The notes below the pieces were generated by a model that ran no database searches, had not been told where the DNA came from, and saw only the letters and a list, made by a program, of their open reading frames with translations. Below, in pieces: positions 44,356-63,508 of a DNA stretch of 64,000 nucleotides (its first letter is position 1; the number at the start of each line of letters is the position of its first letter). The stretch covers positions 5,424,118 through 5,488,117 of the forward strand of contig NZ_JAIFZO010000002.1 of assembly GCF_026341275.1 (NCBI RefSeq), read 5' to 3'. Source of the stretch: Streptomyces ortus. GTDB lineage: Bacteria > Actinomycetota > Actinomycetes > Streptomycetales > Streptomycetaceae. The position numbers were made by a program, and so were the translations under genes.

Positions 44356-44367
44356 ACAACTGGATAT

Positions 44368-44400
44368 GGGTGTGGGGCGGCGCCCGGCCGCCCCACACCC
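44368..44400. terminator. Terminator after the symporter-agmatinase-ThDP operon
   Basis: GGGTGTGGGGCGGC (44368-44381) pairs perfectly with 44387-44400 across a 5-nt loop, between two convergent genes. Confidence 0.9.
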
Positions 44401-44418
44401 GCTTCTCGGACCGATCGC

Positions 44419-45846: not shown

Positions 45847-46004
45847 AGAACGGGAGCCTTTCGAGTCGTTCGGGTTCCGCTTCTGCGTGCGGATTGCCAC
45901 GTTCACTCAGTTCGACTCGATCCGGGCGCCTCCGGTTGTGCACCCCGATGTCATGGCTTTGTAACCGAGGAGACGGATGGGGAGACGGGCGGGGGGACGG
46001 ATGG

Positions 46005-46043
46005 GGCGCTGAACTCCCTGTTCGTCACCGGGAGTTCAGCGCC
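46005..46043. terminator. Terminator after the endonuclease I gene
   Basis: GGCGCTGAACTCCC (46005-46018) pairs with 46030-46043 across an 11-nt loop, 14 bp after the stop codon of the minus-strand nuclease gene. Confidence 0.85.
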
Positions 46044-46056
46044 GTTCACCGTCGGT

Positions 46057-46860
46057 CTACCAGATCGCCTCCACCCACTCCGGGTGGTCGATGAACGGGT
46101 TCCGGTTGTGCTGGTAGGTGCTGTAGATCAGTTCGTTGCGGCGGGTCTCGGAGGCGCTGGGCGGGTCCTCGTCGTTCCACTGCTTCAGCACCGAGAGGCG
46201 GCCGTGGTACCGGACGCTGCCGTTGGTGACGGCGTCGTTGGGCTCCAGGTCGGGCCAGGAGTCGTCGCCCTCGTAGCGGACGGCCATGTACAGGATCATC
46301 CGGGCGACGTCGCCCTTGACGGCGTCGCGCGGCTCGAAGGAGTTCGAGTCGGTGAGGCTGCCGCCGCTGTTGGTGAAGCTGCTGCCGCCGTTGTCGAAGT
46401 CCTTGTTGCCGCGGATGCTGTTGACCTGGACGTCCTCGGGCCGCAGGTGGTGCAGGTCCGTGCCGGGGCCGGCCGAGGTGCCGAAGTCGCCGTGGGACTG
46501 GGCCCAGGTGTGCTCGCGGTTCCAGTCACCGACGTCACCGCCGTTGAGCGACTTGCTGCGGGAGATGCCGGAGTAGAGCAGGACCACGTTGCCGCTGTTG
46601 TTCGGGTCCTGGTCGGTGACCTTGAGCGCCTCCCAGACGGCGGAGTACGAGATCTTCGTCTGGCTCTTGATGATCGTGTGCAGCGAGCCCTTGAGGGCCG
46701 TGCCGGTCTTGCCGATCGCGTTCGCGTAGTACGTGTCGTCGTACGCGGTGGTGGTGGCCGCGGCGGGGGTCGCGGCGACCGTCGGGAGGGTGAGGCCGAC
46801 GAGGAGGGCGGAAACGCCGGCTGCCAGCGCCTTCCACTTGCCTGCGTGCGTTACGGACAT
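46057..46860 (-). CDS. Secreted endonuclease I family nuclease
   Basis: 267 residues. A signal peptide (about 1-35, ALAAGVSALLVGLTLPTVAA then TPAAA) is followed by an EndA/endonuclease I domain. The beta-beta-alpha-metal active site reads WNREHTWAQSHG with a downstream DLHHLRPEDVQVNSIRGNKDFD. Such enzymes cut single- and double-stranded DNA and RNA outside the cell, for nutrient recovery or remodelling of extracellular DNA. It is of ordinary length with all motif residues present. It is a single gene followed by a terminator. Confidence 0.92.
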   Translation of the reverse strand: MSVTHAGKWKALAAGVSALLVGLTLPTVAATPAAATTTAYDDTYYANAIGKTGTALKGSLHTIIKSQTKISYSAVWEALKVTDQDPNNSGNVVLLYSGISRSKSLNGGDVGDWNREHTWAQSHGDFGTSAGPGTDLHHLRPEDVQVNSIRGNKDFDNGGSSFTNSGGSLTDSNSFEPRDAVKGDVARMILYMAVRYEGDDSWPDLEPNDAVTNGSVRYHGRLSVLKQWNDEDPPSASETRRNELIYSTYQHNRNPFIDHPEWVEAIW

Positions 46861-47040
46861 GGGGGGTGCCCTTTCCCGAGAACGGCACGCGCGGGGGCGC
46901 GGGGCCCGGAGTCGTGGGTGGCAACGGTCCCGCGTTCTACGCGTGTTGACAGGTCGTTCAATCGGGAGAGTGGCATGGACATGAGGTCAGTTGCGTAACG
47001 AGGAGGAGTCGTTCGTGTGACGTTCTCGCATACGACGCAA

Positions 47041-47065
47041 CCCCCGGCCGATTCCGGTCCGGGGG
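47041..47065. terminator. Possible terminator after the GT39 gene
   Basis: CCCCCGG (47041-47047) can pair with CCGGGGG (47059-47065) about 45-70 bp after the glycosyltransferase stop. It is a short stem, so moderately supported. Confidence 0.5.
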
Positions 47066-47108
47066 CTGCGGAGGGGGAGGGTTTTCCCCAATTGGGTCAG
47101 GGGAGGCC

Positions 47109-49319
47109 CTAGTTGACGTCCTTTGCGTCGAGGCGGTAGAGGGACTGGGTGCTCTGGGTGCCCTGGGAGTCGGCGGAACCGCTGGAGTCGGCCGAGGAGT
47201 CGGTGCCGTACTCGCTCGCCTTCACCGCTGTCGCGTGCTTCTGCACCCAGGTGGTCACCTCGGAGCTGACGCTGTCGGAGTCGCCGCCCGGGCCGCCGCC
47301 TCCGCCCATGCCCCCGCCGCCGAGCACGATGTAGTGCAGCTCGCCCTTCTTCACGAGTTCCTTCAGCTTGGCGAGGGTCATGGCCTTGTCGCTGCCGGAC
47401 CAGCCCCACATGGAGATGACGGGCTGCTTGGTGCTGACGATCATTTGGGCCGCGCTCTGCGAACTCGAGACGGCGACCAGCCACTTGGCGCCGTCGCGGT
47501 GCTTCTCCAGATAGGAGGTCATGGCGGTGTCGGCGCCACCGCCCATGCCGCCGATTCCGCCGCCCATGCCGCCACCCGCGCCGGTGGGCGGGGTGCCGCT
47601 GGGGGCTCCGGTGGGGGCTCCGCCGGGGGGCGTGCCCATCTGGCCGTCGGCGTTGGCGTCGGGGGCCTCGCCGCCGGCCTGCCCGCTGTCTTGTCGCTGA
47701 CCGCCCTGCCGCTGACCGTCCTGCTGACCGCCGGGGGCCTGGCCGCCACCGCCGCCGGGGAAGCCGCCCCGGCCTCCGTCGCCCCCGGGGCCGCCCATGC
47801 CGCCGCCCGTGGTGGGGCCCGCCGTCGGATTCGTACCGCTCATACCCCCGCCCGAACTCGCGGGTACCGAGGCGGCGTAGGCCGCGGGCCCGGCGAGGGA
47901 GGCGACGACGGCGGCGGCCACGGCGCCGGTGAGGAAGCGCGCCCGGCGCCCGGACCGGAAGAGGAACAGGCCCACGATCGCCAGGACCATCACCACCGCG
48001 ACGGCTGGCCACAGCCAGGTGTTCCAGCCGGAGGCGCGCCGCAGCAGGACGACGGCCCAGACGCCGGTGGCGGCGAACGCCAAGGGCAGCACCCAGGACC
48101 AGCGCTTGGCGTCACCGGTACGGAAGGCACGCAGGAGCATCGCGCCGCCGCCTCCGCACAGCGCCGCGATGCCGGGCGCGAGGGCGGTCGTGTAGTACGG
48201 GTGCATGGTGCCTTCGGCGAGGCTGAAGGTGAGGTAGTGCAGCACGGTCCAGCCGCCCCACAGGATCAGCGCGGCGCGCGTGAGGTCCGTACGGGGGGCG
48301 CGTCCGCGCAGGACGAGGCCGCCGACGAGGGCGATCGCGGAGAAGGGGAGGAGCCAGGAGATCTGGCCGCCCAGCACGTCGTTGAACATCCGCCCGATCC
48401 CGGCGGTCCCGGCAAAACCGCCACCGCCGCCGCCACCCCCGCCTCCGCGGTTGCCGTCGCCGCCGAGGACGCGGCCGAGGCCGTTGTAGCCCATGATCAG
48501 GTCCCAGGCGGTGCCGTCCGTGGAGCCGCCGATGTACGGGCGCGAGGAGGCGGGCACGAGCGACACGGCGGCGGCCCACCAGAAGCTGGAGACCGCCAGT
48601 GCGACCGCCGCGACGGCGAGGTTGCGTACGCGCCGGATCCAGCCGCCCTTCGCCGCGTACAGGTAGACGGCGAAGACGGCGGGCAGGGCGATGTAGCCCT
48701 GGAGCATCTTGGTGTTGAAGGCGAACCCGAAGCACACGGCCGCGCCGACGAGCGGCAGCAGCCTGCCGTCGCGCACGGCGCGCAGGGCCAGGGCCGCGCC
48801 CCCGACCATCAGGAGGACCAGCAGGGTGTCGGGGTTGTTGTCGCGGTTGATGGCGACGGTGATCGGGGTGAGCGCGAGGACGAGCGCGGCGACGGCGGCT
48901 GCGCCGTGGCCCCAGATCCGCTTGACGGACGCGTGCACGATCCAGATCGTGCCGAGGGCGGCGGCGACCAGCGGCAGCATCATCTGCCAGGTGCCGTACC
49001 CGAAGACGCGGCAGGACAGGCCCATCACCATCAGGACGAAGGGCGGCTTGTCCACGGTCAGGAAGTTCCCGGCGTCCAGCGAGCCGAAGAACCACGCCTT
49101 CCAGCTCTGCGTACCGCTGAACACGGCGGCACTGTAGAAGCTGTTCAGGCTGGAGGAGGAGAGGTTCCAGGAGTACAGGACCCCGGCCAGGACGAGGATC
49201 GCGCCGAGCACGGGCAGCGACCAGCGGGGCGCCTTGTCGGGCCGCGCGACCGGCTCGTCGGACGGCGTGGAGGCGACGGCCTCGGGGGCGTGGGGGTACG
49301 GATCGGTGGCAGATGTCAC
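47109..49319 (-). CDS. GT39-family membrane glycosyltransferase (ArnT/PMT-like)
   Basis: 736 residues from GTG at 49319. About 12 membrane helices span residues about 30-480; the first external loop holds the aspartate-containing motif AGNFLTVDKPPFVLM and a second loop INRDNNPDTL, both typical of bacterial GT39 family members that use lipid-linked sugars. A soluble loop carries an uninterrupted run of ten glycines. The C-terminal part (about 480-736) is external: a Gly/Pro/Met/Gln-rich low-complexity stretch followed by a folded domain with LVAVSSSQSAAQMIV and ending in a Ser/Thr-rich tail. It probably glycosylates a cell-surface polymer or protein. The acceptor is unknown. Confidence 0.9.
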   Translation of the reverse strand: MTSATDPYPHAPEAVASTPSDEPVARPDKAPRWSLPVLGAILVLAGVLYSWNLSSSSLNSFYSAAVFSGTQSWKAWFFGSLDAGNFLTVDKPPFVLMVMGLSCRVFGYGTWQMMLPLVAAALGTIWIVHASVKRIWGHGAAAVAALVLALTPITVAINRDNNPDTLLVLLMVGGAALALRAVRDGRLLPLVGAAVCFGFAFNTKMLQGYIALPAVFAVYLYAAKGGWIRRVRNLAVAAVALAVSSFWWAAAVSLVPASSRPYIGGSTDGTAWDLIMGYNGLGRVLGGDGNRGGGGGGGGGGFAGTAGIGRMFNDVLGGQISWLLPFSAIALVGGLVLRGRAPRTDLTRAALILWGGWTVLHYLTFSLAEGTMHPYYTTALAPGIAALCGGGGAMLLRAFRTGDAKRWSWVLPLAFAATGVWAVVLLRRASGWNTWLWPAVAVVMVLAIVGLFLFRSGRRARFLTGAVAAAVVASLAGPAAYAASVPASSGGGMSGTNPTAGPTTGGGMGGPGGDGGRGGFPGGGGGQAPGGQQDGQRQGGQRQDSGQAGGEAPDANADGQMGTPPGGAPTGAPSGTPPTGAGGGMGGGIGGMGGGADTAMTSYLEKHRDGAKWLVAVSSSQSAAQMIVSTKQPVISMWGWSGSDKAMTLAKLKELVKKGELHYIVLGGGGMGGGGGPGGDSDSVSSEVTTWVQKHATAVKASEYGTDSSADSSGSADSQGTQSTQSLYRLDAKDVN

Positions 49320-49642: not shown

Positions 49643-50896
49643 GTGCTACTGAGGTTCCGTGTCGCGAACGTACGGTCGCTGCGTGATGAACAGGAGCTGT
49701 CCTTCGTCGGGTCCGAGGACGGGACGAGCGGGGCAGCCCGTCCAGCAGAGCTGGCGGGCGGCCGGTCGGTGGACGTGCTTCCCCTGATCGGCATTTTCGG
49801 CGCCAACGCGTCGGGCAAGTCGAATGTGCTGGCCGCGATGGTCGACATGCGTACCGCTGTCCTCAACTCCTACGCCCGCTGGGCTTCGTACGACGGCATT
49901 CCGCGCTCTGTCTTCGCACTCGACCCGAAAGGGCAGAGCGAGCCGAGCTTTTTCGAGGTCGATCTCGTCATGGACGGCGTGCGCTGGACGTACGGGTTCG
50001 AACTCGGTGGGACCCAGGTCGAAGCCGAATGGCTGCACAGTTATCCGCGTGGTCACCGGCAGGTGTGGCTCGACCGCGACGCTTCCCGGGCAGAGGTGTA
50101 CGAATGGCCGGGAGCCCGGGTCAAGGACCGGGCGCAGCTCGTGCGGCGCACTCGCCCGAACGCGCTTCTGCTCTCCACCGCGGGGACGGACAACCACCCG
50201 CAGCTGTCCCCTCTCTTCCACTGGTTCCGCCGCAACCTGTGGCTGATCAACCCGGAGGACGCGCGGGCGCAGCGTGAGGCGTTCACCAGACAGGAACTTT
50301 CCGGAGCCAGGGCCCGCCGCATCGAGGAGCTGTTGCGGGTGGCCGACCTCGGCATCACAGGCACCGAACTCGTCGATGAGGGCAAGGGCCGGTCGACGGT
50401 GAAGCTGGTCCACCGTTCGATGACGGGCGAGGTCGCCTTCGACTGGCAGGCCGAGTCACTCGGCACCCGCTCCTGGTTCGCTCTGCTCGGCCCGTTGCTC
50501 CTGGCCCTGGACGAGGGCGCGGTGCTGCTGGTCGACGAGCTGGACGCGAGCCTGCATCCGCGGTTCGCCGCCGAAGTCGTCCGGCTCTTCCACGACCCCT
50601 ACGCCAACCCCAACGGCGCGCAGCTGGTATTCACCTCGCACGACCCGTCAGTGCTGACCACGCCGAGCGGTGGGCGACTGCTGGAGCCCGCTCAGGTGTG
50701 GCTGGCGGAGAAGGGCAAGGACGGGGCGACGGATCTCTACCCGCTGACCGCGGCGTCCCCGGGCGAGGGCGAGGACCTGATGAAGTCGTATCTCGCCGGG
50801 GCCTTCGGCGCGGTCCCGTCACTCATGGAGGGGCAGATCGCCCGACGGCTGCTGGCCGCCGGTGAGTACGCCGAGGACGAGGTGGAACAGGGCTGA
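49643..50896 (+). CDS. rloA: RloA-like AAA/SMC-type ATPase (AbiL-type defence ATPase)
   Basis: A 417-residue ABC/SMC-type ATPase of the AAA_15/AAA_21 class. Walker A is GANASGKS (residues 53-60), a signature-like ESLGTRS lies at 271-277, Walker B is VLLVDELDASLHP (294-306) and the switch histidine is in FTSHDPSVL. GTG at 49643 is 5 nt after GGAGAGGAGG; the longer frame to 49544 lacks such support. The stop overlaps the RloB ATG by one base, so the two are coupled. RloA/RloB pairs occur beside type I restriction loci and as AbiL phage-abortive systems; a defence role is inferred from that and from the neighbours. Confidence 0.9.
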   Translation: MLLRFRVANVRSLRDEQELSFVGSEDGTSGAARPAELAGGRSVDVLPLIGIFGANASGKSNVLAAMVDMRTAVLNSYARWASYDGIPRSVFALDPKGQSEPSFFEVDLVMDGVRWTYGFELGGTQVEAEWLHSYPRGHRQVWLDRDASRAEVYEWPGARVKDRAQLVRRTRPNALLLSTAGTDNHPQLSPLFHWFRRNLWLINPEDARAQREAFTRQELSGARARRIEELLRVADLGITGTELVDEGKGRSTVKLVHRSMTGEVAFDWQAESLGTRSWFALLGPLLLALDEGAVLLVDELDASLHPRFAAEVVRLFHDPYANPNGAQLVFTSHDPSVLTTPSGGRLLEPAQVWLAEKGKDGATDLYPLTAASPGEGEDLMKSYLAGAFGAVPSLMEGQIARRLLAAGEYAEDEVEQG

Positions 50897-51573
50897 TGGC
50901 GAGGACGAGGGGGAAGGACTCGCTGGGTCCGACGCAGCGTCGCGGGCGGCGCAAGAGGGTCGTCCATGTCTTCACCGAGGGGCTGGTCACGGAACCCTCG
51001 TACATCGAGATCGTCAAACAGCACGGCGTCCCGGCGGATCCCGCGATGACCGTGGAGGTGCGCATCGCGAACGCCTCCGCCCCCGGCTCGCAGCGCAAGC
51101 CGCTCAAGCTGGTCGAGGCGGCTGTCCGGCTGATGCGGGACGAGCAGCGGCAGGCGAAGCGCAGCGGGCTGGAGAAGAAGTACCTGCCGCAGGTCTGGTG
51201 CGTCTTCGACCGGGACGAGCACGAGGGCATCGAGACCGCGTTGAAGCAGGCACGGGAGGGTGACGTCAGGGTCGCTTTCTCCCATCCCTGCTTCGAGGTC
51301 TGGCGGCTGCTGCACCACAAGTCGGTCACCGGAACGTTCGCAGGGGTGTGCGGCCAGGTGACGGTGAGACTGCCCTTCGCGAAGACTCCGAAGGACGCGT
51401 CGAACATCAAGCTGGTGCTGCCGCACCAGGTCTCCGGAGGCTATCTGGACGCCAGGAAACGCGCTCTCCAGATGAACGCACAGCACGGTGACCATGTGGC
51501 TCTCGTCAACCGGGACCCGTACACCGACGTGCACGAATTCGTGGAGCAGGGGCTCGGGATCGCCTCGTACTGA
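50896..51573 (+). CDS. rloB: RloB-family protein (AbiL partner, Toprim-like)
   Basis: A 225-residue RloB-like protein. Conserved segments are [16 protein letters not shown] (Glu28 and Glu33), [10 protein letters not shown] (Asp105, Asp107) and [13 protein letters not shown] (129-141). The acidic spacing, a Glu early and a DxD later, resembles a Toprim nuclease centre, so with RloA it may form a split version of an OLD-type ATPase-nuclease; this is inference. It is the natural partner of the preceding ATPase and lies 125 bp upstream of hsdM. Confidence 0.88.
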
Positions 51574-51698
51574 CCGCTTCCGGCCGTTGTGCGTCCGGCG
51601 GACGTGCATCCCGGCCGACACCCGACAAGCGGATTTCGGCGGGGGCCGCGGCGGCCATAGGGTTCCTACGTCACTCGTCAGGTCGTAGGGAGTCGTAC

Positions 51699-54305
51699 GT
51701 GGCCAAGCTCACGCTCGCGCAGTTGGAGCGGCATCTGTTCGCCGCAGCGGACATCCTCCGGGGGACGATGGATGCCTCCGAGTACAAGGACTACATCTTC
51801 GGGCTGCTCTTCCTGAAGCGGGCCAACGACGAGTTCGAAGCGGCGCGGGAGGAGATCAGGCAGTACGCGAGCAGTGAACTGGGCCTGACCGACGAGATGC
51901 TGTCCGGTTTCCTTGAGCAGGAGTCCGAGTACAGCGAGCGTGACGTGCTCTTCGTACCGAAGAACGCCCGCTGGAAGTGGATCTCCTCGGCCACCCACAA
52001 CATCACCGAGGACCGGTTGCGTCCGGCGCTGCAGGCGCTGGAGGGACAGAACGCCAAGCTCCGAGGTCTCTTCGACCACCTCGACTTCAACCGCATCGGG
52101 GGCTCCGGAGCGGCTGCGGGCGCGGCCAGACTCGCCGACCAACGGCTGAAGCTGCTCATCGCGCACTTCGGGCGCATCCGGCTCCGTACGGACGACTTCG
52201 AGTTCCCCGACCTGATCGGTGCCGCGTACGAGTACCTGATCAAGGAGTTCGCGGACTCGGCCGGCCGCAAGGGCGGTGAGTTCTACACCCCGCGCGCGGT
52301 GGTCCGCATGATGGTCGAGTTGCTGGGCCCCCGCCAGGGGATGCGGATCTACGACCCGTGCGTCGGCTCGGGCGGCATGCTCATCCACGCCAAGGAGTAC
52401 GTGGAGGAGCACGGCGGCGACACGTCGGACATGTTCTTCGCCGGCCAGGACGCGAACAGCGGCTCCTGGATCATGTCGACGATGAACATGGTCCTGCACG
52501 GAGTGCGCCGCTTCGACCTGCACACCGGCGACACGCTCGCCGAACCGGCACATGTGCCGAGGTCGGACGCTGACCGCTTCGACGGCGTGCTCAGCAACCC
52601 GCCGTTCTCCATGGACTACGTGCTCGACGATCTGGCGCACGGCGCGCAGCGCACGACCTACGGGGTGACCAGCGAACGCGGCAAGGCCGACCTGATGTTT
52701 CTCCAGCACATGCTGTGGGAGACGAAGCGCGAAGGCCGCGGCGGCATGGTCATCACCGTCATGCCGCACGGTGTGCTGTTCCGCGGAGGCGGCGAGCAGG
52801 CGATCCGTACGAAGCTGCTCGACGAGGACGCCGTCGAGGCGGTCATCGGCCTCGCGCCGAACATCTTCTACGGCACCGGCATCCCGGCCTGCATCCTGGT
52901 GCTGCGTCCGCCGGGCATGAAGGACTCGGCGCGGGCGGGCAAGGTGCTGTTCGTCAACGCGGACCGCGAGTTCCATGCGGAGCGGGCGCAGAACGTGCTG
53001 CTGCCGGAGCACGCCGAGAAGATCACGTCGGCGTTCCATGAGTACGCGGAGGTGCCCGCCTTCTCGCGTGTCGTCAGCCGCGAAGAACTGCGGGACAACG
53101 ACGACAACCTCAACATCCGCCGCTACGTGGACAACACACCGCCGCCGGAGCCGCAGGACGTGCGGGCGCACCTGGTGGGAGGCATGCCGCGTGCGGAGAT
53201 CGAGGCGAAGAAGGAACTGCTCGACTCGTACGAGCTGGTGCTGACCGACCTGTTCGCGGAGCGGGACCCGGCCGACGAGAAGTACGTGGACTTCCTGCCG
53301 GAGGGGCAGAGGCCGGACGCGGCGCGGCTGGGGGAGCTGGCCCGCCCGCGCGAGGACGCGTTGCGGACGGCGTTCGACAAGTGGTGGGCCGCTGAGGCGC
53401 GACAGTTGGAGGCGGTTGCGGCTACGCCGGAGCGGTTGGCGGACCTGACGCCCTCGGAGCGCAAGGCCGCGCTGATGGCGGTGCGCGGCTCGCTGATGGA
53501 GTCGTTCGTGGAGCAACTGCGAGGGGTCGGCCTGCTGGACCGGTACGCGCTGGCGGGAGCGGTGGCCGGCTGGTGGTACGAGGCCAAGTACGACCTGCTC
53601 GCGCTGTCGGAGAACGGGTTCGCGGGGGTTGTGGACGGCTGGGTCGAGAACGTCGAGACGATGCTCGCGCCCGAGCAGGACCCGAAGACGCGGAAGCTGA
53701 AGAAGCGGACGGCGGCGGAGCGGCGGCAGGCGTACGACCACAAGGTGGTCGCGGCCATCGCGCCCGACTTCCTGGAGGAGCTGGCGGCGGCGGACGCGCG
53801 GAAGGCGGAGCTGGACGCGCGGTGGAAGGAGCTGAACGCGGAGCCGGATGCTTCGGAGGACGGTGAGGGCGACGAACGTGACGAGGACGCTGTCACACGG
53901 GAGGCCGTGACCCTGAGCGTGGAGCAACTGGCGGAAATCGCCCAGGTGAAGAAGGACCGCACGAAGGTAGGGGCGCTGATCAAGCGGCTTGAGGGGGACT
54001 TCTGGTTCGAGCGGGCTGCTGCTTCGGCGGGGCAGTCCCGGTTGGGGGAGGAGGAGCCGCGGTTGTTCCGGGCTCGGGCCGCGTTGAGCCCGGAGGGGGA
54101 GCGGCGGGTCGTGCTGGACCTGCTGCGAGACGACCTGGTCGGGAAGCTGGATGGTCATGTGGTGCGTCGGCGTCGGGAATTGGCGGATACGTACGGGGTG
54201 TGGGAGTCGAAGTACGCGGTGTCGTTGAGGGAGATCCGGGCTGGGCGGGAGAAGGCGGCGGAGACGCTGGACGGGTTTCTGAAGGAGCTTGGCTATGTCG
54301 GCTGA
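51699..54305 (+). CDS. hsdM: Type I restriction-modification methyltransferase subunit HsdM
   Basis: 868 residues from GTG at 51699. HsdM_N helices (about 1-165) are followed by the N6-adenine methyltransferase domain: GGEFYTP (192-198), SAM motif [10 protein letters not shown] (219-227) and catalytic NPPF (300-303). It methylates adenine in the target set by HsdS. The typical HsdM ends near 500-540 residues; here a further 330 or so follow, rich in Lys/Glu/Arg helices ([38 protein letters not shown]). HsdM subunits of this longer class exist, but the extension's role is unclear. The 3' end overlaps hsdS. Confidence 0.95.
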
Positions 54306-55497
54306 CGTGAGTGGCACTCGTTTCCTGCCTCTTGAGGCCCTTGCTGAGATCACGGGTGGTGTAGCCCTTGGCGGAGGTGCTCCAGGCGGTGCTGTCGAGT
54401 TGCCTTATTTGCGCGTAGCGAATGTCCAAGACGGATACATCGATACGCACGACGTCAAGACAGTTGGGGTGCCCGCGAGTGCGGTTAGGCGATTTCGTCT
54501 GATGCGCGGAGACGTTCTGCTGACTGAGGGCGGGGATCTCGACAAGCTTGGCCGGGGCGCTGTTTGGGACGGTCGGATCGATCCTTGCCTGCATCAAAAT
54601 CACATTTTCAAGGTGCGGTGCGATCGGGCGAAACTCTTGCCCGAGTTTCTATCGCTTTACATGGCTTCCGGTGAGGGGAAATCTTTCTTCTTGCGTGTTG
54701 CTAAGCAGACAACGAATCTGGCTTCGATCAGCTCGTCACAGCTGAAAGCCATGCCGGTTCCTGTGCACTCGCTTGCCGGGCAGCGGCGGATCGTCGACGT
54801 GATCGAAACCGTGTCGGCGCAGGAGCGTGCCATCGAGGCGTCGATCGCGAAGCTGGAAGCATTCAGTGGTGGTGTGATGGCGGAACTCGCGGACCTGGAG
54901 TGCGGAACGCTAAATGATGTCCTTGATTTTGGTCCACAGAACGGGATCTACAAGCCTGGATCCTCCTATGGGCTTGAGGGGACACCGATCGTTCGTATTG
55001 ACAGCTTTAGAGGTGGCCCATCGGATTTTACCCGGAACCTCCTCCGTGTTGCGGTGGCCAACGAGGAGGTCGAGCGCTATAAGCTTGTCACCGGTGACGT
55101 TCTGATCAACCGGGTGAACACCCCGGAACTGGTTGGAAAGTCAACTGCTGTAGGCGAGGTGCTGGAATCGACGGTTTTTGAGTCGAATATGATGCGGTGC
55201 AAGTTGCGTGCCGATCGAGCTGTTCCTGCTTTTGTTGAAACGTGGCTGGGAGGGAGAACGGCGAAGGCGCACTTCCGTGCACGCGCTAAGAGCGCAATTT
55301 CGCAAGCCAGTATCAATGGCAGTGATGTGCGTAGTTGCCCGTTCCCGAAACTTCATATTGCTGAACAGTTGGAGTTTCTAGATCGACTTGCAGCGGTCAG
55401 AGGGCAGCAGCGATTTGAGAATGGTGAGCTGGTCAAGCTCAGGAAACTCAAGCAGGGGATCATGGATGGGTTGTTGGATCGCCGCGTCAGCGTCTGA
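54295..55497 (+). CDS. hsdS: Type I restriction-modification specificity subunit HsdS
   Basis: 400 residues with two target recognition domains. The first begins [12 protein letters not shown] and carries [14 protein letters not shown], and the second carries [12 protein letters not shown]; each is followed by a helical spacer ([24 protein letters not shown] and [34 protein letters not shown] in pieces). The ATG at 54295, with GAAGGAG 7 nt upstream, overlaps the hsdM stop. Base composition is visibly more AT-rich than any neighbour and codon choice is relaxed, suggesting recent acquisition or recombination of this specificity gene. The recognition sequence cannot be predicted. Confidence 0.95.
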
Positions 55498-55584
55498 ATA
55501 TCGGCCCGCGTTGGCTTGCTAGCTCTTTTCCGCAAGACCGATCCCGCAGACAGGCGCCGTCGGCACCGACCAGGGGCTCACGCC

Positions 55585-55908
55585 TCAACTTCGATGTCGC
55601 GGCAATGGCGGTGCCGGCGGTCGACGATGTGACATGGCCCCCGTCACACGACAGGGGCTGGTCGCCGGGAGAGAGGGAGTCCTTGTCCATGCGGGGAACT
55701 TGCCGTCCTTGACGGCTGTGACGAACGATGACCAGTCAGCCGCCGGGAATACCAGCGCGGGACCGTGCGGGATCTTGGAGTCGCGGACAGGGACGCCCGA
55801 GGGGTGGTCATCCAGCACCTCGATGCAACTGCCTCCCTCGCTGTTGCTGTAGGACGACTTCCGCCAGCCTCGCAGTGCTGCAGCGTTCGGGATTATTCGG
55901 TCAGTCAT
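55585..55908 (-). CDS. DUF397 domain protein
   Basis: A 107-residue protein with a DUF397 domain at residues about 14-75 (GWRKSSYSNSEGGSCIEV ... VPVRDSKIPHGPALVFPAADWSSFVTAV) and a Pro/Arg-rich tail. DUF397 proteins accompany XRE/DUF5753 regulators in Streptomyces (BldB/WhiJ-type systems) and probably act with them. Its ATG overlaps the XRE gene's stop by 8 nt. It runs opposite to the hsd genes. Confidence 0.88.
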   Translation of the reverse strand: MTDRIIPNAAALRGWRKSSYSNSEGGSCIEVLDDHPSGVPVRDSKIPHGPALVFPAADWSSFVTAVKDGKFPAWTRTPSLPATSPCRVTGAMSHRRPPAPPLPRHRS

Positions 55909-56695
55909 GGTGTCCGTAGTCCTTCGCTGTCGCCCTCAGTAGGGCCAATGAATCTTTTAGCGGCACTGCGTCGCTCATCGCGAGATCGTAGCGGCCCTGC
56001 AACTCCCGAACCACGGACGGGGAGTCGTGCATCTTCCCCATGCGCAGGCCCTCGCTGTACGCCACGGGCGGTTGGTCGTCGAACCACATCAGGCTGAGCA
56101 TGTTCTCCATCAGCGGGTGGAAGCCCAGGCTGAACGGCATCACATGGACCCGTACCCGGCCCCTCTCTGCAAGGCGAACCATGTGCATGATCTGCTCCGC
56201 CATCACATCGGGCCCGCCCACGACCCGCCGCAACACCGCCTCGTCCAGCAGTGCCCAAACTACCGGCGTCACCGGATCGTCAAGGATCTTCGCGCGCTCA
56301 CGCCGTGTGACAACGAGCCTGTCACATTCCCTTTCACCCACAGGAGGGAACGACGTGCCCAGAACCGCACGTGCGTACCGTTCCGTCTGGAGGATGCCCG
56401 GTACGAACGACAGGGCGAACTCCCGGATCATCACCGCCTGTTGTTCGAGCAGCCGAGCCGCCTCGAAGTAGCTGGCGACCGCCGCGTCCTCCGCTGGCAG
56501 GAAACTGCTCAGCACATTTCCCGTGTTCAGGACCCTATCCAGGCGCCGGGCGTCCTCCTTGGAAGGAACGCGCCGCCCCGCCTCGATGTGCGAGATGTGC
56601 GAACGAGTCATGACCGCCGCGTCGGCCAACTCCTGCTGTGTCAGCCCTGCCGTCTCGCGTTGCTGCTTGAGCCAGTCACCGTACGTGCTGGTCAT
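55901..56695 (-). CDS. XRE-family regulator with DUF5753 domain (WhiJ-like)
   Basis: 264 residues. The helix-turn-helix at about 9-60 reads LKQQRETAGLTQQELADAAVMTRSHISHIEAGRR. The DUF5753 ligand-like domain covers about 95-255, with FVPGILQTERYARAVLG, VTRRERAKIL and VMPFSLGFHPLMENMLSLMWF. It is the upstream partner of the DUF397 gene and divergent from a small Streptomyces gene. Such modules influence development in S. coelicolor. Sitting between hsdS and hsdR, it might also affect restriction gene expression. Confidence 0.9.
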   Translation of the reverse strand: MTSTYGDWLKQQRETAGLTQQELADAAVMTRSHISHIEAGRRVPSKEDARRLDRVLNTGNVLSSFLPAEDAAVASYFEAARLLEQQAVMIREFALSFVPGILQTERYARAVLGTSFPPVGERECDRLVVTRRERAKILDDPVTPVVWALLDEAVLRRVVGGPDVMAEQIMHMVRLAERGRVRVHVMPFSLGFHPLMENMLSLMWFDDQPPVAYSEGLRMGKMHDSPSVVRELQGRYDLAMSDAVPLKDSLALLRATAKDYGHHD

Positions 56696-56706
56696 GGCCT
56701 CTCCTT

Positions 56707-56727
56707 TGTGACAAATGACTGGTCACA
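56707..56727. promoter_or_regulatory. Inverted repeat in the XRE promoter region
   Basis: TGTGAC and GTCACA are separated by 9 nt just upstream of the XRE gene (start 56695). It is a candidate autoregulatory operator. Confidence 0.45.
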
Positions 56728-56865
56728 CCCGACCCTCTGGCGAGCCTAGACCGGGCCGTCTCACTCTGTAAGTGAATGGCTACAGAATGCGAGACCCCCG
56801 CGACCGTGCGACCTGTACGACCGGTCCGTGGCATGGCCATCAACGAACCCAACGGAGTTGACGAC

Positions 56866-57185
56866 ATGAGTCACCGTGTCGCCCGCCTCTTCGAACCGCT
56901 GCTGCGATTGCTCTTTCCCGGAACGGGGCGCAGGCGTCGCCCGGTCACTGCTCCGGTGGGTGCGTGCGCGTGTCCCCCTACTCTTGTGGCGAGGGAGCTA
57001 CCTCCACCCGGGTCGGCTCGCGTTCCCTGCGGGGTGAGGACCACGTGACGGTCCGTCCTTATCTCGTCGCCCATGAGCGCGAGGAAGCGCGGCGGCAACG
57101 GGGGCGGAGGCGTGCCCTGTGGCTCGCCGTGCACGGCGTCGACATCGGGCCGCAGGTCATCCATGGTGTGGAGGTGACCGTGTGA
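56866..57185 (+). pseudogene. Small conserved Streptomyces gene, apparently frameshifted
   Basis: From ATG at 56866 the frame encodes MSHRVARLFEPLLRLLFPG and a Pro/Ala-rich stretch, then stops at about 57048. A second frame, recognisable from about 57008 (TRVGSRSLRGEDHVTVRPYL and LAVHGVDIGPQVIHGVEV), gives the expected second half and ends at 57185. The total of 320 bp is one base short of a whole number of codons (321), so a single-base change separates the halves. These small proteins accompany XRE/DUF397 modules in Streptomyces. Two separate short genes are an alternative. Its stop overlaps the next gene (GTGA). Confidence 0.6.
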
Positions 57186-57544
57186 TCGGCAACCGGACGG
57201 AAACCGCCCGCTTGCTTCCGTGGTCCGGCCCGGAAGGCAAGCCTTGTTACCTCGTCGGCGACGGGAGCGGTCATCTCTCCCGGGTCGCCGACAGAGTCGA
57301 GAGCGTGCAGCTCGGCATGGCGGGCGACCTCCTCGATCACGCCGCCCACATGCTCGCGGACGACAAGTCCACCTCCGTGCAGCTTCGTTTCCTGGCGGCT
57401 CGGATGGCCGAGGCGCTGCGTGACGTCCACCGCATCGCGGAGAGCCGGGGCGCCCGTCTACCCGATGCCGAGTGCGCCGACCTTGACGGGATCGACGACT
57501 CCGACGAGCCCGGCGACGCCGAGAACCTCGTACCGGGATCCTGA
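57182..57544 (+). CDS. Conserved Streptomyces protein of XRE/DUF397 neighbourhoods, unknown function
   Basis: 120 residues from GTG at 57182, overlapping the preceding stop as GTGA. The N-terminal part (RLLPWSGPEGKPCYLVGDGSG) is followed by helices (GMAGDLLDHAAHMLADD, LRFLAARMAEALRDVHRIAESRG) and an acidic tail. Related small proteins occur downstream of XRE-divergent genes in many Streptomyces. No enzymatic motif was recognised. Confidence 0.75.
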   Translation: MIGNRTETARLLPWSGPEGKPCYLVGDGSGHLSRVADRVESVQLGMAGDLLDHAAHMLADDKSTSVQLRFLAARMAEALRDVHRIAESRGARLPDAECADLDGIDDSDEPGDAENLVPGS

Positions 57545-57807
57545 TCCGCCCGCGCCAACCGGCGCCCCCCCCGCACACCCTGCACACCTTGACCGGGGGC
57601 GTACTTCACCTCCTCCGCGTACGCCCCGGTCCGTCGCGCACCACGAGGAGGAGAGGCGGGGATCCCTGGTCGCCCACCAGAATCCTCCAGACGCCCGCGT
57701 CCTCGTCCTCGCCCACCCCGTCCGGCCGGATCCCTCCCCTCCGCCCCGCCCAAGGCGCAGAATGGATCACTTCGGCGGGCAGGGACAGCGGGCGGAAGGC
57801 GCGGCAC

Positions 57808-60800
57808 ATGGCGGTGCAGGTCGAACGGGACGAGGTGGAGCGGCCGTTCGTCCAGCAGCTCACCGCCATGGGCTGGACGCACGTGGCCGGTACGGAGGTC
57901 GGTACGCTCGACGCCGGTACGCCTGTCCTTGCCGAGGAGCTCAAGGCCGCCCTGCGGCGCATCAACGTCCGGGCGGCGGACCGCGAACCCTGGATGGACG
58001 ACACCGATGTCGCCCGCTCCATCGCGGAACTGGCATCCGTCCCACTCGGGAAGGGCGTCGTACAGGCCAATTTCGCCGCCACCGACCTGCTGCTCAGCGG
58101 ATGCGTCCTCACAGGGCCCTCCGCCGCGCACGGCGGTGCCTCCGCCACCGTCCAGTACATCGAATGGCACCCCGACCACGTCACGCTCAACGACTTCACC
58201 GTCGTCGACCAGCTCCGCGTCAAGAACCGTTCCGGGGACGTGTCGATACTCGACATCGTCCTCTTCGTGAACGGCATCCCCCTCGTCGCAGTCGAGTGCA
58301 AGAGCCCCGACCTCGCCGAGCCCGTCCGCAGCGCCGTACTCGATCTGCGGCACTACGCCGGCGACCCGATCGACGACGACGAGCGCACCGGAACCGACCT
58401 GCCGCTCCCGGGCGGCGTACCCGAGCTGTTCCGGACCGTGCAGTTGCTGGTCGCGGCGACCGGCGAGACCGCCCATCTCGGCACCGTCACCTCCTCGCCC
58501 GAGCGCTTCCATCCGTGGCGCAGCGTGAGCCCGGAGAGGGAGAGCACGCTCAGGAAGGAGCTGCCGGACGGCACCGGCAAGCTGACCGAGCAGCACAAGC
58601 TCGTGGGTGTCGTCCTGCGGCCTGCCGCCCTGCTGAACTTCGTACGCCATTACGTCATCCCCCTGCCCGTGGAGACCGAGTCCGGGGCGGTCCGGACCGT
58701 CAAGGCGGTCGCCCGGCACCAGCAGTACCGGGCCGCCGAGAAGGCTGTACGCAAGCTGCTCTCCGGCCGTCCGCGCGGCGGGCCGGTGCCCGACGACGAG
58801 CGTGGCGGTGTCATCTGGCACACCCAGGGCTCCGGCAAGAGTCTGACCATGACCTTCCTCGTGCGCCGGGTCCATCTGCACCCGAAGCTCAGCGAGTTCA
58901 CGGTCGTGATCGTCACCGACCGCACCCAGCTCCAGGACCAGCTGTCCAAGACCCTGAAGCTGAGCGAGTCGGATGTCGAGAGAGCCGAGACCCGTACGCA
59001 GATGGAGGGACTGCTGAGGGACGGTGGCCGACGCGTCGTCTTCGCGATGATCCAGAAGTACGGGGGCGGGTTCACCTTCGCCGCCGAAGCCGAGGGTGAC
59101 GCCGACGACCGTGATCTCACGAAGGAGTACGACGACGCCGAGCGTGCCGGAAAGGGCCGCAAACGGCGCAAGGGGCCGCCGCCCGTCCCGAACTTCCCCG
59201 AGTGCAACACCTCGTCGGACATCCTGGTCCTGGTCGACGAGGCGCACCGCTCGCACACCAGCGTCCTGCACGCGGCCCTGCGCAAGGCCATCCCGAACGC
59301 CGCGAAGATCGGTTTCACGGGTACGCCGATCATCACCGGCGAGGCCTCCGACACCCGCCGGATCTTCAGCGGCGGCCCGGACAGCGGCTTCCTGGACGAG
59401 TACCGGATGGAGGAGGCCGAGCACGACGGCGTCGTCGTGCGCATCCGCTATGAAGGGCGCACCGGTGAGGGAAGGGTTTATGACAAGGAAGGTCTGGATC
59501 GCTCCTTCGAGGACCTGATCCGCGACCGCACGGACGAGGAGAGGGCGACCCTCCTCAACCGGTGGCCCACCGAACGGGACGTCGCCGAGTCGTGGCCGAT
59601 GATCTGTGCCAAGGCCGAGGACATGCTGGAGCACTGGGTGTGCTGGGTGCTGCCCTCGGGCGGGTTCAAGGCCCAGGTGGCGGCCGTGAGCCGGAAGGCG
59701 GCCGTCGAGTACCACCACGCACTGCGCCGGGCTCGCGACCAACTCCTTTCCGAACTCGTCGAGTTCAGGCCGGAGTCCGTTCACGGGATCCCGCTCAAAG
59801 AGCTTCCACGGCATCTCCGCTACCTCTACCAGGCGTACGAGTTCCGGGCGATCCTGCGCCGCATCGACTTCGTGCCGGTCGTCTCCCCGGGAGCGGAACG
59901 CAAGCGCCGCAAGTGGCTTCACTGGACCGACCCGAGCCGTCAGAAGGCGTACATCGATCGCTTCCACGAAGCGTTCCCACAGCTGCCGCCCGAGCCCGAC
60001 TGGGTCGCCGCCACGCCCTTCAACGCTCCGGAGCCGGTCATCCACGGGAACGGCCTCGGCGCCGACACTCCCTGGTCCGACATGCCGACCGGGCAGCCGG
60101 AGCCGGGACCATCGAAGACCGAGGTTCCCGACCCCGTACATCCGGAGAGCCCCATCGCCTTCCTGATCGTGAAGTCGATGCTTCTCACCGGATTCGATGC
60201 CCCGCGCGAGCAGGTGCTCTACCTCGACCGGCCCATCCGGGACGCCGAGCTGCTCCAGGCCGTTGCCCGCGTCAACCGGCCCGCGCCAGGTAAGAAAGTC
60301 GGGTACGTCGTGGACTACTACGGCGTGTTCGAGCACCTTTCCAGTGCGCTGGCCGACTACCGGCAGGCCGACGTCGACGACACCATGCGAAGTCTGTCCA
60401 CGGAGGTGAAAGCCCTCGCGCCCGCCGCCGCGCGGGTACGCGCGTTCCTGAGCGAGCAGGGTGTGACGGACGCGGACCTCACCGACCTCGCCCGACTGCG
60501 CGAGGCCGTCCTGTCCTTCGAGGACGAGACCGTCCGTCTCCGTTTCGACGAGGTGTTCCACGAGTTCCTCGCCGTACTGGAACGGGTACTTCCGCACGAG
60601 GACGCGTTGGACCACCTTGCCGACGCCCGGCGTTGGGGGATGCTGCAGAAGCGTGTCCGGCGTCTGTACCGGGACGACACGGGCGGGACGTTCACCCTGC
60701 GCCGGTACGGACGCAAGGTACGAGCCATGATTGCCGACCATTTGGAAGGACCGGAGATCGAGCAGGTCATCCCGCCCGTCTCGCTCACCTCACCCGTCTT

Positions 60801-61365
60801 CGACGACATGGTGCGTGAGCTGCCTCCGCGCGAGGCTGCGGCCGAGATGGGGCATGCCCTCCGGTTCCATCTGGAGGAGCGGGTCAAGAGGGAGGACCCG
60901 GAGAAGTACGACAGGCTTTCCAGGCGACTGGAGGAGATCCTGAAGCAGATGCCCGGTCGTTTCGAGGAGCAGGTCGAGGAGTTCGAGATGCTCATCGAGC
61001 ACGCCAGGCAGGAGGACGAGGAGGACCCCGCCCTCGCAGGGCTCAGCCTGCTGGAGCAGCGTGTCCACCGGCTTCTGGATCAGCTCCTTGAGGACAACCC
61101 GGGAATCGAGGGTGGCCAGGAGGACACGCGACCTCTGGTCGTCGCCGTGTGTGACACCGCGGCGAGCACGATGTCCAAGGCTTCCTACCAGGGGCAGCAC
61201 CAGGACATCAACCGTCTCGCGAACGGCATCCAGACACAGCTGATTCGTAGCGGCCTCAGGCCCGCATCCGCCGACTGGGGGCCGCTGACCCATGTCTCCC
61301 AGCGACTCGCGGCATACGCGGAGATCAACCGGCAGCAGTTCCTGAGCCGGGCCAGGGGAGAATAG
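57808..61365 (+). CDS. hsdR: Type I restriction-modification endonuclease/translocase subunit HsdR
   Basis: 1185 residues. The ATG at 57808 is 9 nt after GGAAGG; the longer frame to 57589 is repeat-like. The N-terminal HSDR_N nuclease domain has Asp149 and Glu163-Cys-Lys165 (LDIVLFVNG, VAVECKSP). The SF2 motor has Walker A TQGSGKS (339-345) and DEAH (477-480), with a later FDAPREQVLYLDRP and QAVARVNRP motif VI region, and the C-terminus is helical (DUF3387-like). It translocates DNA with ATP and cuts at a distance from unmethylated sites bound by HsdM/HsdS. It is separated from hsdS by a 2.3-kb regulatory module. Confidence 0.96.
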   Translation: MAVQVERDEVERPFVQQLTAMGWTHVAGTEVGTLDAGTPVLAEELKAALRRINVRAADREPWMDDTDVARSIAELASVPLGKGVVQANFAATDLLLSGCVLTGPSAAHGGASATVQYIEWHPDHVTLNDFTVVDQLRVKNRSGDVSILDIVLFVNGIPLVAVECKSPDLAEPVRSAVLDLRHYAGDPIDDDERTGTDLPLPGGVPELFRTVQLLVAATGETAHLGTVTSSPERFHPWRSVSPERESTLRKELPDGTGKLTEQHKLVGVVLRPAALLNFVRHYVIPLPVETESGAVRTVKAVARHQQYRAAEKAVRKLLSGRPRGGPVPDDERGGVIWHTQGSGKSLTMTFLVRRVHLHPKLSEFTVVIVTDRTQLQDQLSKTLKLSESDVERAETRTQMEGLLRDGGRRVVFAMIQKYGGGFTFAAEAEGDADDRDLTKEYDDAERAGKGRKRRKGPPPVPNFPECNTSSDILVLVDEAHRSHTSVLHAALRKAIPNAAKIGFTGTPIITGEASDTRRIFSGGPDSGFLDEYRMEEAEHDGVVVRIRYEGRTGEGRVYDKEGLDRSFEDLIRDRTDEERATLLNRWPTERDVAESWPMICAKAEDMLEHWVCWVLPSGGFKAQVAAVSRKAAVEYHHALRRARDQLLSELVEFRPESVHGIPLKELPRHLRYLYQAYEFRAILRRIDFVPVVSPGAERKRRKWLHWTDPSRQKAYIDRFHEAFPQLPPEPDWVAATPFNAPEPVIHGNGLGADTPWSDMPTGQPEPGPSKTEVPDPVHPESPIAFLIVKSMLLTGFDAPREQVLYLDRPIRDAELLQAVARVNRPAPGKKVGYVVDYYGVFEHLSSALADYRQADVDDTMRSLSTEVKALAPAAARVRAFLSEQGVTDADLTDLARLREAVLSFEDETVRLRFDEVFHEFLAVLERVLPHEDALDHLADARRWGMLQKRVRRLYRDDTGGTFTLRRYGRKVRAMIADHLEGPEIEQVIPPVSLTSPVFDDMVRELPPREAAAEMGHALRFHLEERVKREDPEKYDRLSRRLEEILKQMPGRFEEQVEEFEMLIEHARQEDEEDPALAGLSLLEQRVHRLLDQLLEDNPGIEGGQEDTRPLVVAVCDTAASTMSKASYQGQHQDINRLANGIQTQLIRSGLRPASADWGPLTHVSQRLAAYAEINRQQFLSRARGE

Positions 61366-61370
61366 AGCGC

Positions 61371-62153
61371 GTGACCGCGCTTGCCGACAACCGCCAGGCC
61401 GAGACACCCGTGGACGGTGACTCGGTCACCGTCGACGGCATCTCCATGCGCGTGCGGGTGAGTGCCCGCAGGAAGCGGTTCGCGCTCACCGTGGAGCCGG
61501 ACGCGACCCTGACCCTGCACGTTCCCGAAGGGCGCCCGAAGACGGAGGCGGAGGACTTCGCACGGGCGCACCGGGAGTGGGTGGTCGCTAAACTCGGCCA
61601 GCGCGAGCGGACTCGCCCGCTGAACCCCGCGAAACGGCTGACCGAGGGGGAGGTCTTCCGCTACCTGGGGCGGACGTACCGGTTGGCGGTGTCGGACAGC
61701 GCACCCGCAGACGGCAGGATCCGGCTGGTCGCCGGTCGGCTGGTGATCGCCCGCAGACAGGCCGAGGACGAGGCGGAGGGGCGTGCTGCGCTGGTCGACT
61801 GGTACTGCCGGGCGGGCCGGGCATGGGCCGTCGACCGGGTCCAGCCGTGGGCCGCTCGCATGGCGGTCGGCGAACCTGAGTTGGATGTACGGGACTTGGG
61901 GCACAAGTGGGGCGCGTACCGGCCCGGTGAGGGGATGGGGGAGCCGGGTCGGATGAGTCTGGGGTGGCCGCTCTTCCAACTTCCCATGCATCTGGTCGAC
62001 TACGTCATCGCGCACGAACTGGCCCACGTGAAAGTCTCCGGGCACGGCGCGGACTTCTGGCGGCTGGTGCGGCTCGCGCTGCCCGAGTACGAGGAGCGCC
62101 GGGCGGAACTCGACGAGCTGGGCCGCCGCATGTGGATGGGCGAGATCCGCTGA
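61371..62153 (+). CDS. YgjP/M48-type metallopeptidase linked to type I restriction
   Basis: 260 residues from GTG at 61371, 5 bp after the hsdR stop. The N-terminal beta-rich part (about 20-150) has RRKRFALTVEPDATLTLHVP and the C-terminal part carries the zinc motif HELAH (215-219) with a third ligand His225 (SGHGADFW). This is the SprT/YgjP (DUF45, WLM-like) architecture. Genes of this family often follow hsdR in bacterial type I loci, so it is probably part of the same operon. Its target is unknown; it could process the complex or a phage protein. Confidence 0.9.
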   Translation: MTALADNRQAETPVDGDSVTVDGISMRVRVSARRKRFALTVEPDATLTLHVPEGRPKTEAEDFARAHREWVVAKLGQRERTRPLNPAKRLTEGEVFRYLGRTYRLAVSDSAPADGRIRLVAGRLVIARRQAEDEAEGRAALVDWYCRAGRAWAVDRVQPWAARMAVGEPELDVRDLGHKWGAYRPGEGMGEPGRMSLGWPLFQLPMHLVDYVIAHELAHVKVSGHGADFWRLVRLALPEYEERRAELDELGRRMWMGEIR

Positions 62154-62560
62154 AGGCCGACACCCCGGTTGAGTCCCGGTAAGCGCAAGAACACATCGCC
62201 GGCGAACTGGACGACGCCATGAAGGCCGGCAGTCTGAAGGCATCGATGACGATCAAGAAGGGGTCATCGAGAGGATCGGTCAGTTCTGGCATCGCGCGAA
62301 CGTCCGCACGATGACGGGGAGCGTTCACGCCGATGTCGGGCAGTGCTCATCGGAGAGGGTTAATAGCGGCTCTGACCTGCGAGTTTTTTGGAAGAGGAAG
62401 CCGGTCTCCGTACAACCACCCTCCCGGGTCCGGGGTCTCACCGGGTGAGTGGGAACAACACCTGTCCCACTGGTCTCACAGACCCCGGCGGGCGGCCTGA
62501 TCAACCGTCTCGCCCTCACTCCGACCTCCGTACACACCCCACCCGAAGGGTTCCTTCCGC
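62154..62560. other. Intergenic region at the right edge of the defence island
   Basis: 407 bp without a convincing gene. A short frame (EHIAGELDDAMKAGSLKA, about 62190-62300) lacks a supported start. A 7-bp stem AGTGGGA/TCCCACT at 62448-62471 could be a weak terminator. The part 62340-62400 is less GC-rich than its surroundings. Confidence 0.5.
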
Positions 62561-63409
62561 ATGCGCACTTCACGGTTCCTCTCCGCCACCGCCCTCGGGC
62601 TCACCCTCGCCGGAGCCGCCCTCCTGGCCCCCGTCACCGCCCAGGCGGACACCGTGGCCGCGGCGACCGTCACCCGCGAGGACGGCTCGATCTGGTACAG
62701 GGCCGCCCCCGGCCAGGTGAACGACCTGAAGGTCTCCGTCGAGTACGTCGACGTCGACCCCGAAGGCGACGAGGACCAGTACCTCATCACCTTCCGCGAC
62801 CAGGTCGACATCACCATCGGCCACGACGCGTGCACCTACCCCTCCCCGGCCGACCACACCGTCGTCCAGTGCACGGAACCCACCCCCCTCGGCTCCGACG
62901 ACCTGAACCAGTACGACGTCGACCTCGGCGACGGGAACGACACCGCGACGATCGGCACGGGCAGTGCGCAGGGCACGATCCGCGGCGGTGACGGCGCCGA
63001 CGTCCTCAGGGGCCGGTACGCGAACCAGCTGAGCGGCGGAGCCGGCGACGACCGTATCGAGGGCATCGACGGTTCCTGGATCCGCGGCGCCGACGGCGGT
63101 GCCGGCAACGACACCATCCTCGCGAGCTGCGACTACAGCTGCAACGGCGGCGCGGGTGACGACAGGCTCACGGCGGTCAGCGACGACGAGGGGGGCTACA
63201 CCACCCTGTACGGCGACGACGGCGACGACATCGTGCGCGGGACGACGGGGAACGACTACCTCTACGGCGGCAAGGGCAACGACACGCTGTACGGCCTCGC
63301 GGGCGACGACACCATCTACGGCAACACCGGCAACGACACGCTGTACGGCGGCGCGGGCAACGACACCCTCTCCGGCGGCGCGGGCGTGAACAAGGTCCAC
63401 CAGGACTGA
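62561..63409 (+). CDS. Secreted calcium-binding RTX-repeat protein
   Basis: 282 residues. A signal peptide (about 1-29, ending VTAQA) precedes a beta-rich N-terminal part. From about residue 120, RTX nonapeptides of the GGxGxDxLx type follow ([49 protein letters not shown]), interrupted near 190 by a Cys-containing CDYSCNGG loop. RTX repeats fold into a calcium-bound beta-roll. There is no type I secretion signal or toxin domain, so it is a Sec-exported surface or matrix protein rather than a toxin. A terminator follows. Confidence 0.9.
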
Positions 63410-63425
63410 GTCCCACGAGACGGCG

Positions 63426-63450
63426 GCGGGCACGCGCACCGCGTGCCCGC
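63426..63450. terminator. Terminator after the RTX gene
   Basis: GCGGGCACGCG (63426-63436) pairs with 63440-63450 across a 3-nt loop, 17 bp after the stop codon. Confidence 0.8.
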
Positions 63451-63508
63451 TGTCCGGAATTCACGGGCAGGACCCTCCCTCTCCACCCGTTCCTCCTACC
63501 GTGACGCC

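Follow-up and report, generated by a model that had tools for sequence, protein, structure and literature searches.

Known restriction-linked effectors and the Streptomyces ortus locus

PrrC-EcoprrI is a known case of an effector that watches a restriction-modification (R-M) enzyme: PrrC always occurs together with a type Ic R-M enzyme, which binds it and through which it is activated, T4 Stp releasing it from the enzyme (PMC2610378). In PARIS, the Toprim tRNase AriB is kept in check by the AriA ATPase and let go when Ocr is sensed (PMC12409363). The RRDM island of enteropathogenic Escherichia coli (RptR-hsdMS-DarTG-hsdR-M48), which has been shown to defend, has a regulator of its own, extra genes inserted between hsdS and hsdR, and an M48 peptidase gene following hsdR (PMC12255303). 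The name 'rlo' itself stands for restriction-linked open reading frame (Miller 2005, as cited in PMC2610378). Here we describe a locus at positions 49643-62153 of a 64,000-nucleotide window of the 9.29-Mb Streptomyces ortus genome (all S. ortus positions are those of the window), in which a RloA-RloB pair (RloAB) precedes a type I R-M gene set and a gene for a YgjP-type peptidase. The order rloA-rloB-hsdM-hsdS-[regulatory insert]-hsdR-ygjP is one conserved, co-inherited unit and not a loose island. Its tight links are those of RloAB with HsdM and of HsdR with YgjP, two sub-blocks of which the second comes and goes as a whole.

The unit begins with rloA (49643-50896, + strand; start placed by homologues: MLLRFRVANVRS), which encodes an AbiL-type ATPase of 417 amino acids (Pfam AAA_21, 142 bits, cut-off 27; PADLOC AbiLi, 278 bits) with the Walker A motif GANASGKS and the Walker B motif LLVDELDASLH. 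It overlaps by 1 nucleotide with rloB (50896-51573, +), so that the AAA_21 ATPase is directly followed by a 225-residue protein of the RloB family (PF13707, 98.5 bits, cut-off 31.5; PADLOC AbiLii) with the motifs TEGLVTE and FDRDEHE. The hsdM gene (51699-54305, +) encodes a long-form type I N6-adenine methyltransferase of 868 residues (N6_Mtase, 306 bits; HsdM_N; PADLOC MTase_I, 821 bits) with the motifs DPCVGSGG and NPPF, and its end is overlapped by the start of hsdS (about 54295-55497, +). The HsdS specificity subunit, of about 400 residues, matches PADLOC Specificity_I in two stretches (232 bits) and NCBIfam below threshold, with no Pfam match at E 0.01. The hsdR gene (57808-61365, +; start from homologues) encodes a type I restriction/translocase subunit (TIGR00348, 371 bits, cut-off 285) with the nuclease motif VECK, the Walker motif HTQGSGKS and DEAH. 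At the right end of the unit, ygjP (61371-62153, +) encodes an M48/SprT-like zinc peptidase with HELAH, an HExxH motif, plus a downstream H; its match to PF01863 is above the cut-off (150 against 26 bits), and the same profile also matches proabylysin.

Except for hsdS and one small open reading frame, every gene is identified by Pfam, NCBIfam or PADLOC, and the genes named in an earlier sequence-only reading of this DNA are all there, in the order and on the strand it gave. Catalytic motifs are intact in all window proteins inspected. All components of a type I R-M system are present: HsdM with N6-methylase motifs, HsdS by its PADLOC match, and HsdR with the motifs of a nuclease and a superfamily 2 motor. 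The locus is classed as type I R-M, with predicted methylation and restriction activity, and RloAB as AbiL type, with a predicted role in abortive infection.

An AlphaFold2 model of RloA (predicted local distance difference test score, pLDDT, 81) matches Rad50/SMC heads at Z 18 and PtuA at Z 16-17, which marks RloA as a predicted SMC/Rad50-type ATPase; AriA/PARIS chains are absent among the structural matches listed for it. In RloB, E28, E33, D105 and D107 are invariant across 42 aligned sequences, and the best matches of its model (pLDDT 92) are 2p62 (Z 7.8) and the OLD TOPRIM domain 6nk8 (Z 7.3), the latter score lying below the secure range and possibly at chance level. Sequence comparison of RloB with PDB gave low-information matches only. 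RloB is probably a TOPRIM-like nuclease, on the basis of the conserved residues and the Z 7.3 match. These fold estimates, and the selection estimates given below, are approximate.

Compared with PrrC-EcoprrI, the locus likewise holds an ATPase-linked toxic effector within an hsd locus, probably activated when the R-M enzyme is disturbed, but here RloA (AAA_21) and RloB are two separate proteins, activation is a prediction, and no PrrC-type anticodon nuclease appears among the Pfam or listed PADLOC matches of either. PARIS also combines an SMC-like ATPase with a Toprim-type effector, and RloA matches the AriA profile (143 bits, PADLOC); RloB, however, matched only AbiLii in PADLOC and not AriB, the PARIS partner, and the window pair is tied to type I R-M. 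RRDM shares a type I R-M system with a module between hsdS and hsdR, an M48 peptidase after hsdR and its own regulator, whereas the window has its effector pair ahead of hsdM and XRE/DUF397 as the insert; no DarTG family match was found among the window proteins, and the regulator is a 264-residue XRE/DUF5753 protein, not the 79-residue RptR. AbiL/RloAB abortive infection systems are alike in their AbiLi and AbiLii profile matches and in having stand-alone copies in relatives, but the window type of RloAB is fixed to one HsdM clade within a larger unit. MADS also places a methyltransferase, a specificity subunit and an ATPase in one locus, and weak mad2, mad3 and MAD5 matches occur, those to MAD2 and MAD5 far below the curated cut-offs (62 against 720 bits and 39 against 400 bits).

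The naming of rlo genes and the description of RRDM in E. coli mean that the individual links, RloAB with type I systems and YgjP with HsdR, are already known. What is new is that RloAB, HsdMSR and YgjP form a stable unit in several actinobacterial families, and that this unit has an HsdR-less form. In the open-access literature, we found no description of this unit, of HsdR-less fusion alleles or of fusions lacking methylase motif IV, no paper on the trigger or target of AbiL/RloAB, and nothing useful on RloA/RloB or on YgjP with type I systems.

Two linked blocks across actinobacterial genomes

Linkage was counted in 150 Streptomyces genomes, whose shared ancestry makes matches within the genus not fully independent. 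HsdM homologues were divided into a close set, clade A (E 1e-160 or better, 16 loci), and the remaining 31 (E up to about 1e-60). RloB lies within 5 kb of 15 of the 16 clade-A HsdM genes and of none of the 31 others (Fisher p = 2e-11, species not being fully independent). For an R-M-type YgjP within 15 kb, the counts are 12 of 16 versus 1 of 31. A single close HsdM locus of the sample carries HsdR and YgjP without RloAB (L079, 2513-10387, genome G012). A general search of the phylum recovered RloA of the window type in only 5 of 346 genomes and was therefore left out of the statistics.

Named actinobacterial loci, the best 80 of 150, came from a scan of genome contigs anchored on RloA and are biased to linked copies; some loci of the analysis carry two ids (for example L061/L129 and L062/L102), and HsdR linkage is taken from retrieved loci, not from genome-wide counts. 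The order rloA-rloB-hsdM-hsdS-hsdR-ygjP recurs in several families and is kept at 30-50% identity, down to about 30% identity to the window in RloB and 35% in HsdR. Compact forms, in which about 70-170 nucleotides separate the hsdS and hsdR matches, are found in Nonomuraea (L105), Nocardiopsis (L134) and Catenulispora (L160), while Actinokineospora (L168) has rloA-rloB-hsdM-hsdR-ygjP with hsdS upstream of rloA. In 26 of 27 intact loci hsdR is followed by ygjP at a fixed distance, which places ygjP about 11.3-15.4 kb from the start of rloA. YgjP also accompanies HsdR in the distant bacteria Synechocystis, Geobacillus and Hoyosella, and YgjP-like proteins occur apart from HsdR too. The association of both RloAB and YgjP with type I loci, which the sequence-only reading had named as known, is thus real (PMC2610378 for the 'rlo' naming; PMC12255303 and the three distant loci for YgjP). 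The linkage of YgjP, which is to HsdR, is thereby separated from that of RloAB, which is to HsdM, and AbiL/RloAB gains a concrete candidate partner.

The same reading had proposed a cooperating multilayer system. This is supported in part: the genes assort non-randomly, as one inherited unit, and independent variation of the modules was not seen for RloAB-HsdM or for HsdR-YgjP. Cooperation of all parts is not supported: HsdR and YgjP are repeatedly lost while RloAB and a fused HsdM-HsdS are kept, RloAB and HsdMSR-YgjP each occur without the other, and the compact operons of other families lack XRE/DUF397.

Our preferred reading, held tentatively, is that RloAB is a dedicated AbiL-type latent effector tied to the HsdM-HsdS core of the type I locus; it is favoured because PrrC and PARIS provide precedents. 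HsdM2S would methylate host sites, and HsdR, recruited to HsdM2S, would translocate and cut unmodified phage DNA. RloA, as an SMC/Rad50-like ATPase, would restrain RloB, the presumed TOPRIM-type nuclease, at or close to the HsdM-HsdS complex until a phage anti-restriction protein or unmodified DNA disturbed that complex. RloB, once released, would cleave host or phage nucleic acid (tRNA by analogy), and the infection would be aborted. For YgjP we infer a role in the turnover of HsdR, which it probably processes or removes (restriction alleviation), and XRE/DUF397 would be an optional Streptomycetaceae regulatory or addiction module.

Several points weigh against this proposal. The presence of RloAB alone in related genomes means that RloAB does not need HsdM, and HsdMSR-YgjP occurs without RloAB in L079 and in Hoyosella. 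The TOPRIM match of RloB is weak, a Foldseek search with RloB giving nothing at E 0.001. A physical or regulatory contact between RloAB and HsdM-HsdS is putative, and co-selection and joint transfer could instead have produced the linkage. In that case RloAB and the type I system would be independent neighbours that act separately and travel together as useful defence genes in a shared hotspot, as the many solitary RloAB loci, the solitary HsdMSR-YgjP loci and the persistent chromosomal site (agmatinase, thiamine pyrophosphate (TPP) enzyme and EndA genes), empty in other strains, would allow. We nevertheless consider this explanation rather unlikely: the linkage is to one HsdM clade only, order and spacing are invariant, and the HsdS type and HsdR are swapped while RloAB keeps its HsdM. 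Moreover, pairwise distances of RloA and HsdM have a rank correlation of 0.85 (56 loci), which exceeds the 0.41 (17 loci) of RloA with the neighbouring TPP-enzyme gene, the partial RloA-HsdM value being 0.71 (n = 9). The correlation of RloA with the agmatinase gene is 0.65, and part of the RloA-HsdM signal is therefore shared ancestry.

Two loci have unusual surroundings. On a Hoyosella plasmid, hsdM-hsdS-hsdR-ygjP without RloAB (L184, 5141-14044) adjoins a Pycsar effector and cyclase. In Actinomadura flavalba (L170, 494-17551), two divergent hsd sets flank rloAB, and the HsdM adjacent to RloAB has NPEF, not NPPF.

HsdR-less alleles with fused HsdM-HsdS

To call fusions of HsdM with HsdS, we measured how far the C terminus of HsdM extends beyond the model in 46 loci where HsdM is near-complete. 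In 40 of these the extension is 14-19 residues long, and HsdR was recovered in 35 of the 40, the other five being truncated by an insert, at a contig end or at the limit of the flank. In the remaining six it measures 270-272 residues and corresponds to half an HsdS with one target-recognition region. The loci with this long form of HsdM are without HsdR, except for a remnant in L154, and the related fusions L064, L069 and L071 have either none or a C-terminal remnant; HsdR and YgjP are lost or remnant in the fused loci. Three further candidates (L110, L175 and L177) were rejected as fusions, their open reading frame lengths being inflated by upstream frame extension.

The form without HsdR occurs at the same chromosomal site in S. 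dioscori, whose RloA is 95% identical to that of the window. The two loci are collinear at 86-94% up to window position 53836, and the XRE part is kept (79%), but S. dioscori lacks window 57457-63460, with hsdR and ygjP, and carries an HsdM-HsdS fusion. Ratios of non-synonymous to synonymous substitution rates (dN/dS, Nei-Gojobori) between the two are 0.12 for RloA and 0.02 for RloB. In pairs of HsdR-less loci they are 0.11-0.15 for RloA, 0.19-0.46 for RloB, 0.22-0.32 for the HsdM body and 0.23-0.34 for the fused tail, so the HsdR-less form is not mere decay. Placed on the RloA tree, with the tandem fusions L139 and L140 described below included, the fusion label requires 10 changes, of which well-supported branches enforce at least eight, and shows no clustering (a value as low arose in 164 of 500 shuffles). 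This scatter implies that RloAB-HsdM remained in place through repeated exchanges of the 3' cassette. Thus, the HsdR-YgjP block can be lost while the RloAB-HsdM core is retained under purifying selection, and HsdR-YgjP is best read as a separable restriction arm. Natural alleles with and without HsdR at one site are ready strains in which to ask whether the phage, the methyltransferase or the restriction subunit is what RloAB senses.

A second kind of fusion stands directly after rloB as an extra gene, with APPF or VPPF replacing NPPF as methyltransferase motif IV, in S. dysideae (L139, 11714-14818), S. lanatus (L140, 11928-14828; also L186) and genome G104 (L070, 4100-6963). Its frame is open and under purifying selection in L139 and L140 (dN/dS 0.25, dS 0.44), and the copy in L070 is itself broken. 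L186 and L070 each have another hsdM-hsdS-XRE-hsdR-ygjP set behind the extra fusion; several genes of the later set are frame-shifted in L186, possibly through sequencing error. These few cases suggest, as a lead, that what RloAB uses of HsdMS may be its part in recognition or as a scaffold, and not methylation.

Both kinds of fusion bear on the possibility that RloAB is an interference nuclease guided by HsdM-HsdS, which would hand over unmodified sites, with HsdR as an alternative, replaceable effector. The retention of RloAB with fused HsdM-HsdS under purifying selection in HsdR-less alleles is in its favour, as are the APPF/VPPF fusions next to RloAB in three genomes, open in two and with low dN/dS. 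Most fusions retain NPPF, however, so methylation is probable there, and a dead methylase is unable to mark self, so that another rule would be needed to tell self from non-self. In addition, stand-alone RloAB has no guide, and TOPRIM relatives of known target include a tRNase (PMC12409363). A guided nuclease is accordingly a doubtful explanation, less probable than independent neighbours, and the latent effector tied to HsdM-HsdS is preferred to both. Lowest in our estimate is a distinct, HsdR-independent immune system formed by RloAB with the HsdM-HsdS fusion, in which the fusion, sometimes without its catalytic motif, would be a DNA-recognition sensor licensing RloA-RloB, the full locus being the same system with HsdR-YgjP added.

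Unit ends, chromosomal site and the hsdS-hsdR insert

Recurrent deletions between rloA and ygjP identify these two genes as the ends of the unit. The remnant in L068 (genome G145, 8098-10623) consists of rloA-rloB-hsdM' and 'ygjP, the 5' part of rloA runs into ygjP in L078 (15791-16734), and the start of rloA is joined to the end of ygjP in L093 (9821-10087). An agmatinase-TPP-enzyme gene pair adjoins the locus in many strains (27-28 loci), and the window flank at 42667-49319 holds genes for a TPP enzyme, an FG-GAP protein and an EndA nuclease, and PMT-like genes. In seven genomes, 31-802 nucleotides separate the TPP-enzyme gene from that for EndA, an unoccupied arrangement. The position of the locus relative to EndA differs among strains, and no one exact insertion point is definable. 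A mobile-element reading was rejected, with no matching end repeats, no tRNA nearby (the only one of the window is tRNA-His at 8617) and no RloA relative in IMG/VR.

The XRE/DUF397 module that the sequence-only reading had placed as an interruption is present, but it is divergently transcribed, and a second, conserved small open reading frame (about 57182-57544, +) precedes hsdR. The module comprises a DUF397 small protein (55585-55908, -; PF04149, 77 bits) and a 264-residue XRE/DUF5753 regulator (55901-56695, -; PF19054, 164 bits; HTH_31, 59 bits). From its distribution, it is read as an optional Streptomycetaceae insertion, a putative regulatory or addiction module outside the core. Alternatively, it could be a switch that controls the locus by timing hsdR-ygjP relative to hsdMS, like type II C proteins, an idea compatible with the other readings that we hold to be as improbable as the guided nuclease. 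Such a switch would fit two features of the Streptomyces loci: nearly all have an XRE gene in the hsdS-hsdR interval, in most cases divergent from hsdR, and the XREs that recur there are diverse (25-80% identity), with either DUF397 or an ATPase-like protein as partner. XRE-DUF397 pairs are documented regulators (PMC10364602, PMC6262351). Against it, XRE/DUF397 is absent at this position from the Nonomuraea, Nocardiopsis, Catenulispora and Actinokineospora operons, is kept in HsdR-less and hsd-deleted loci, and has its XRE in the same direction as hsdR in some. A sigma-70 promoter scan of the XRE-hsdR gap found nothing.

By tblastn, the small open reading frame is matched in more than 30 further loci at about 50-77% identity, a few of the matches containing internal stop codons. 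Its protein has no Pfam, NCBIfam or PADLOC match and carries the motif RLLPW..GKPCYL...SRVAD. Relatives of this frame are also found away from the rloAB-hsd locus (L101 and L145).

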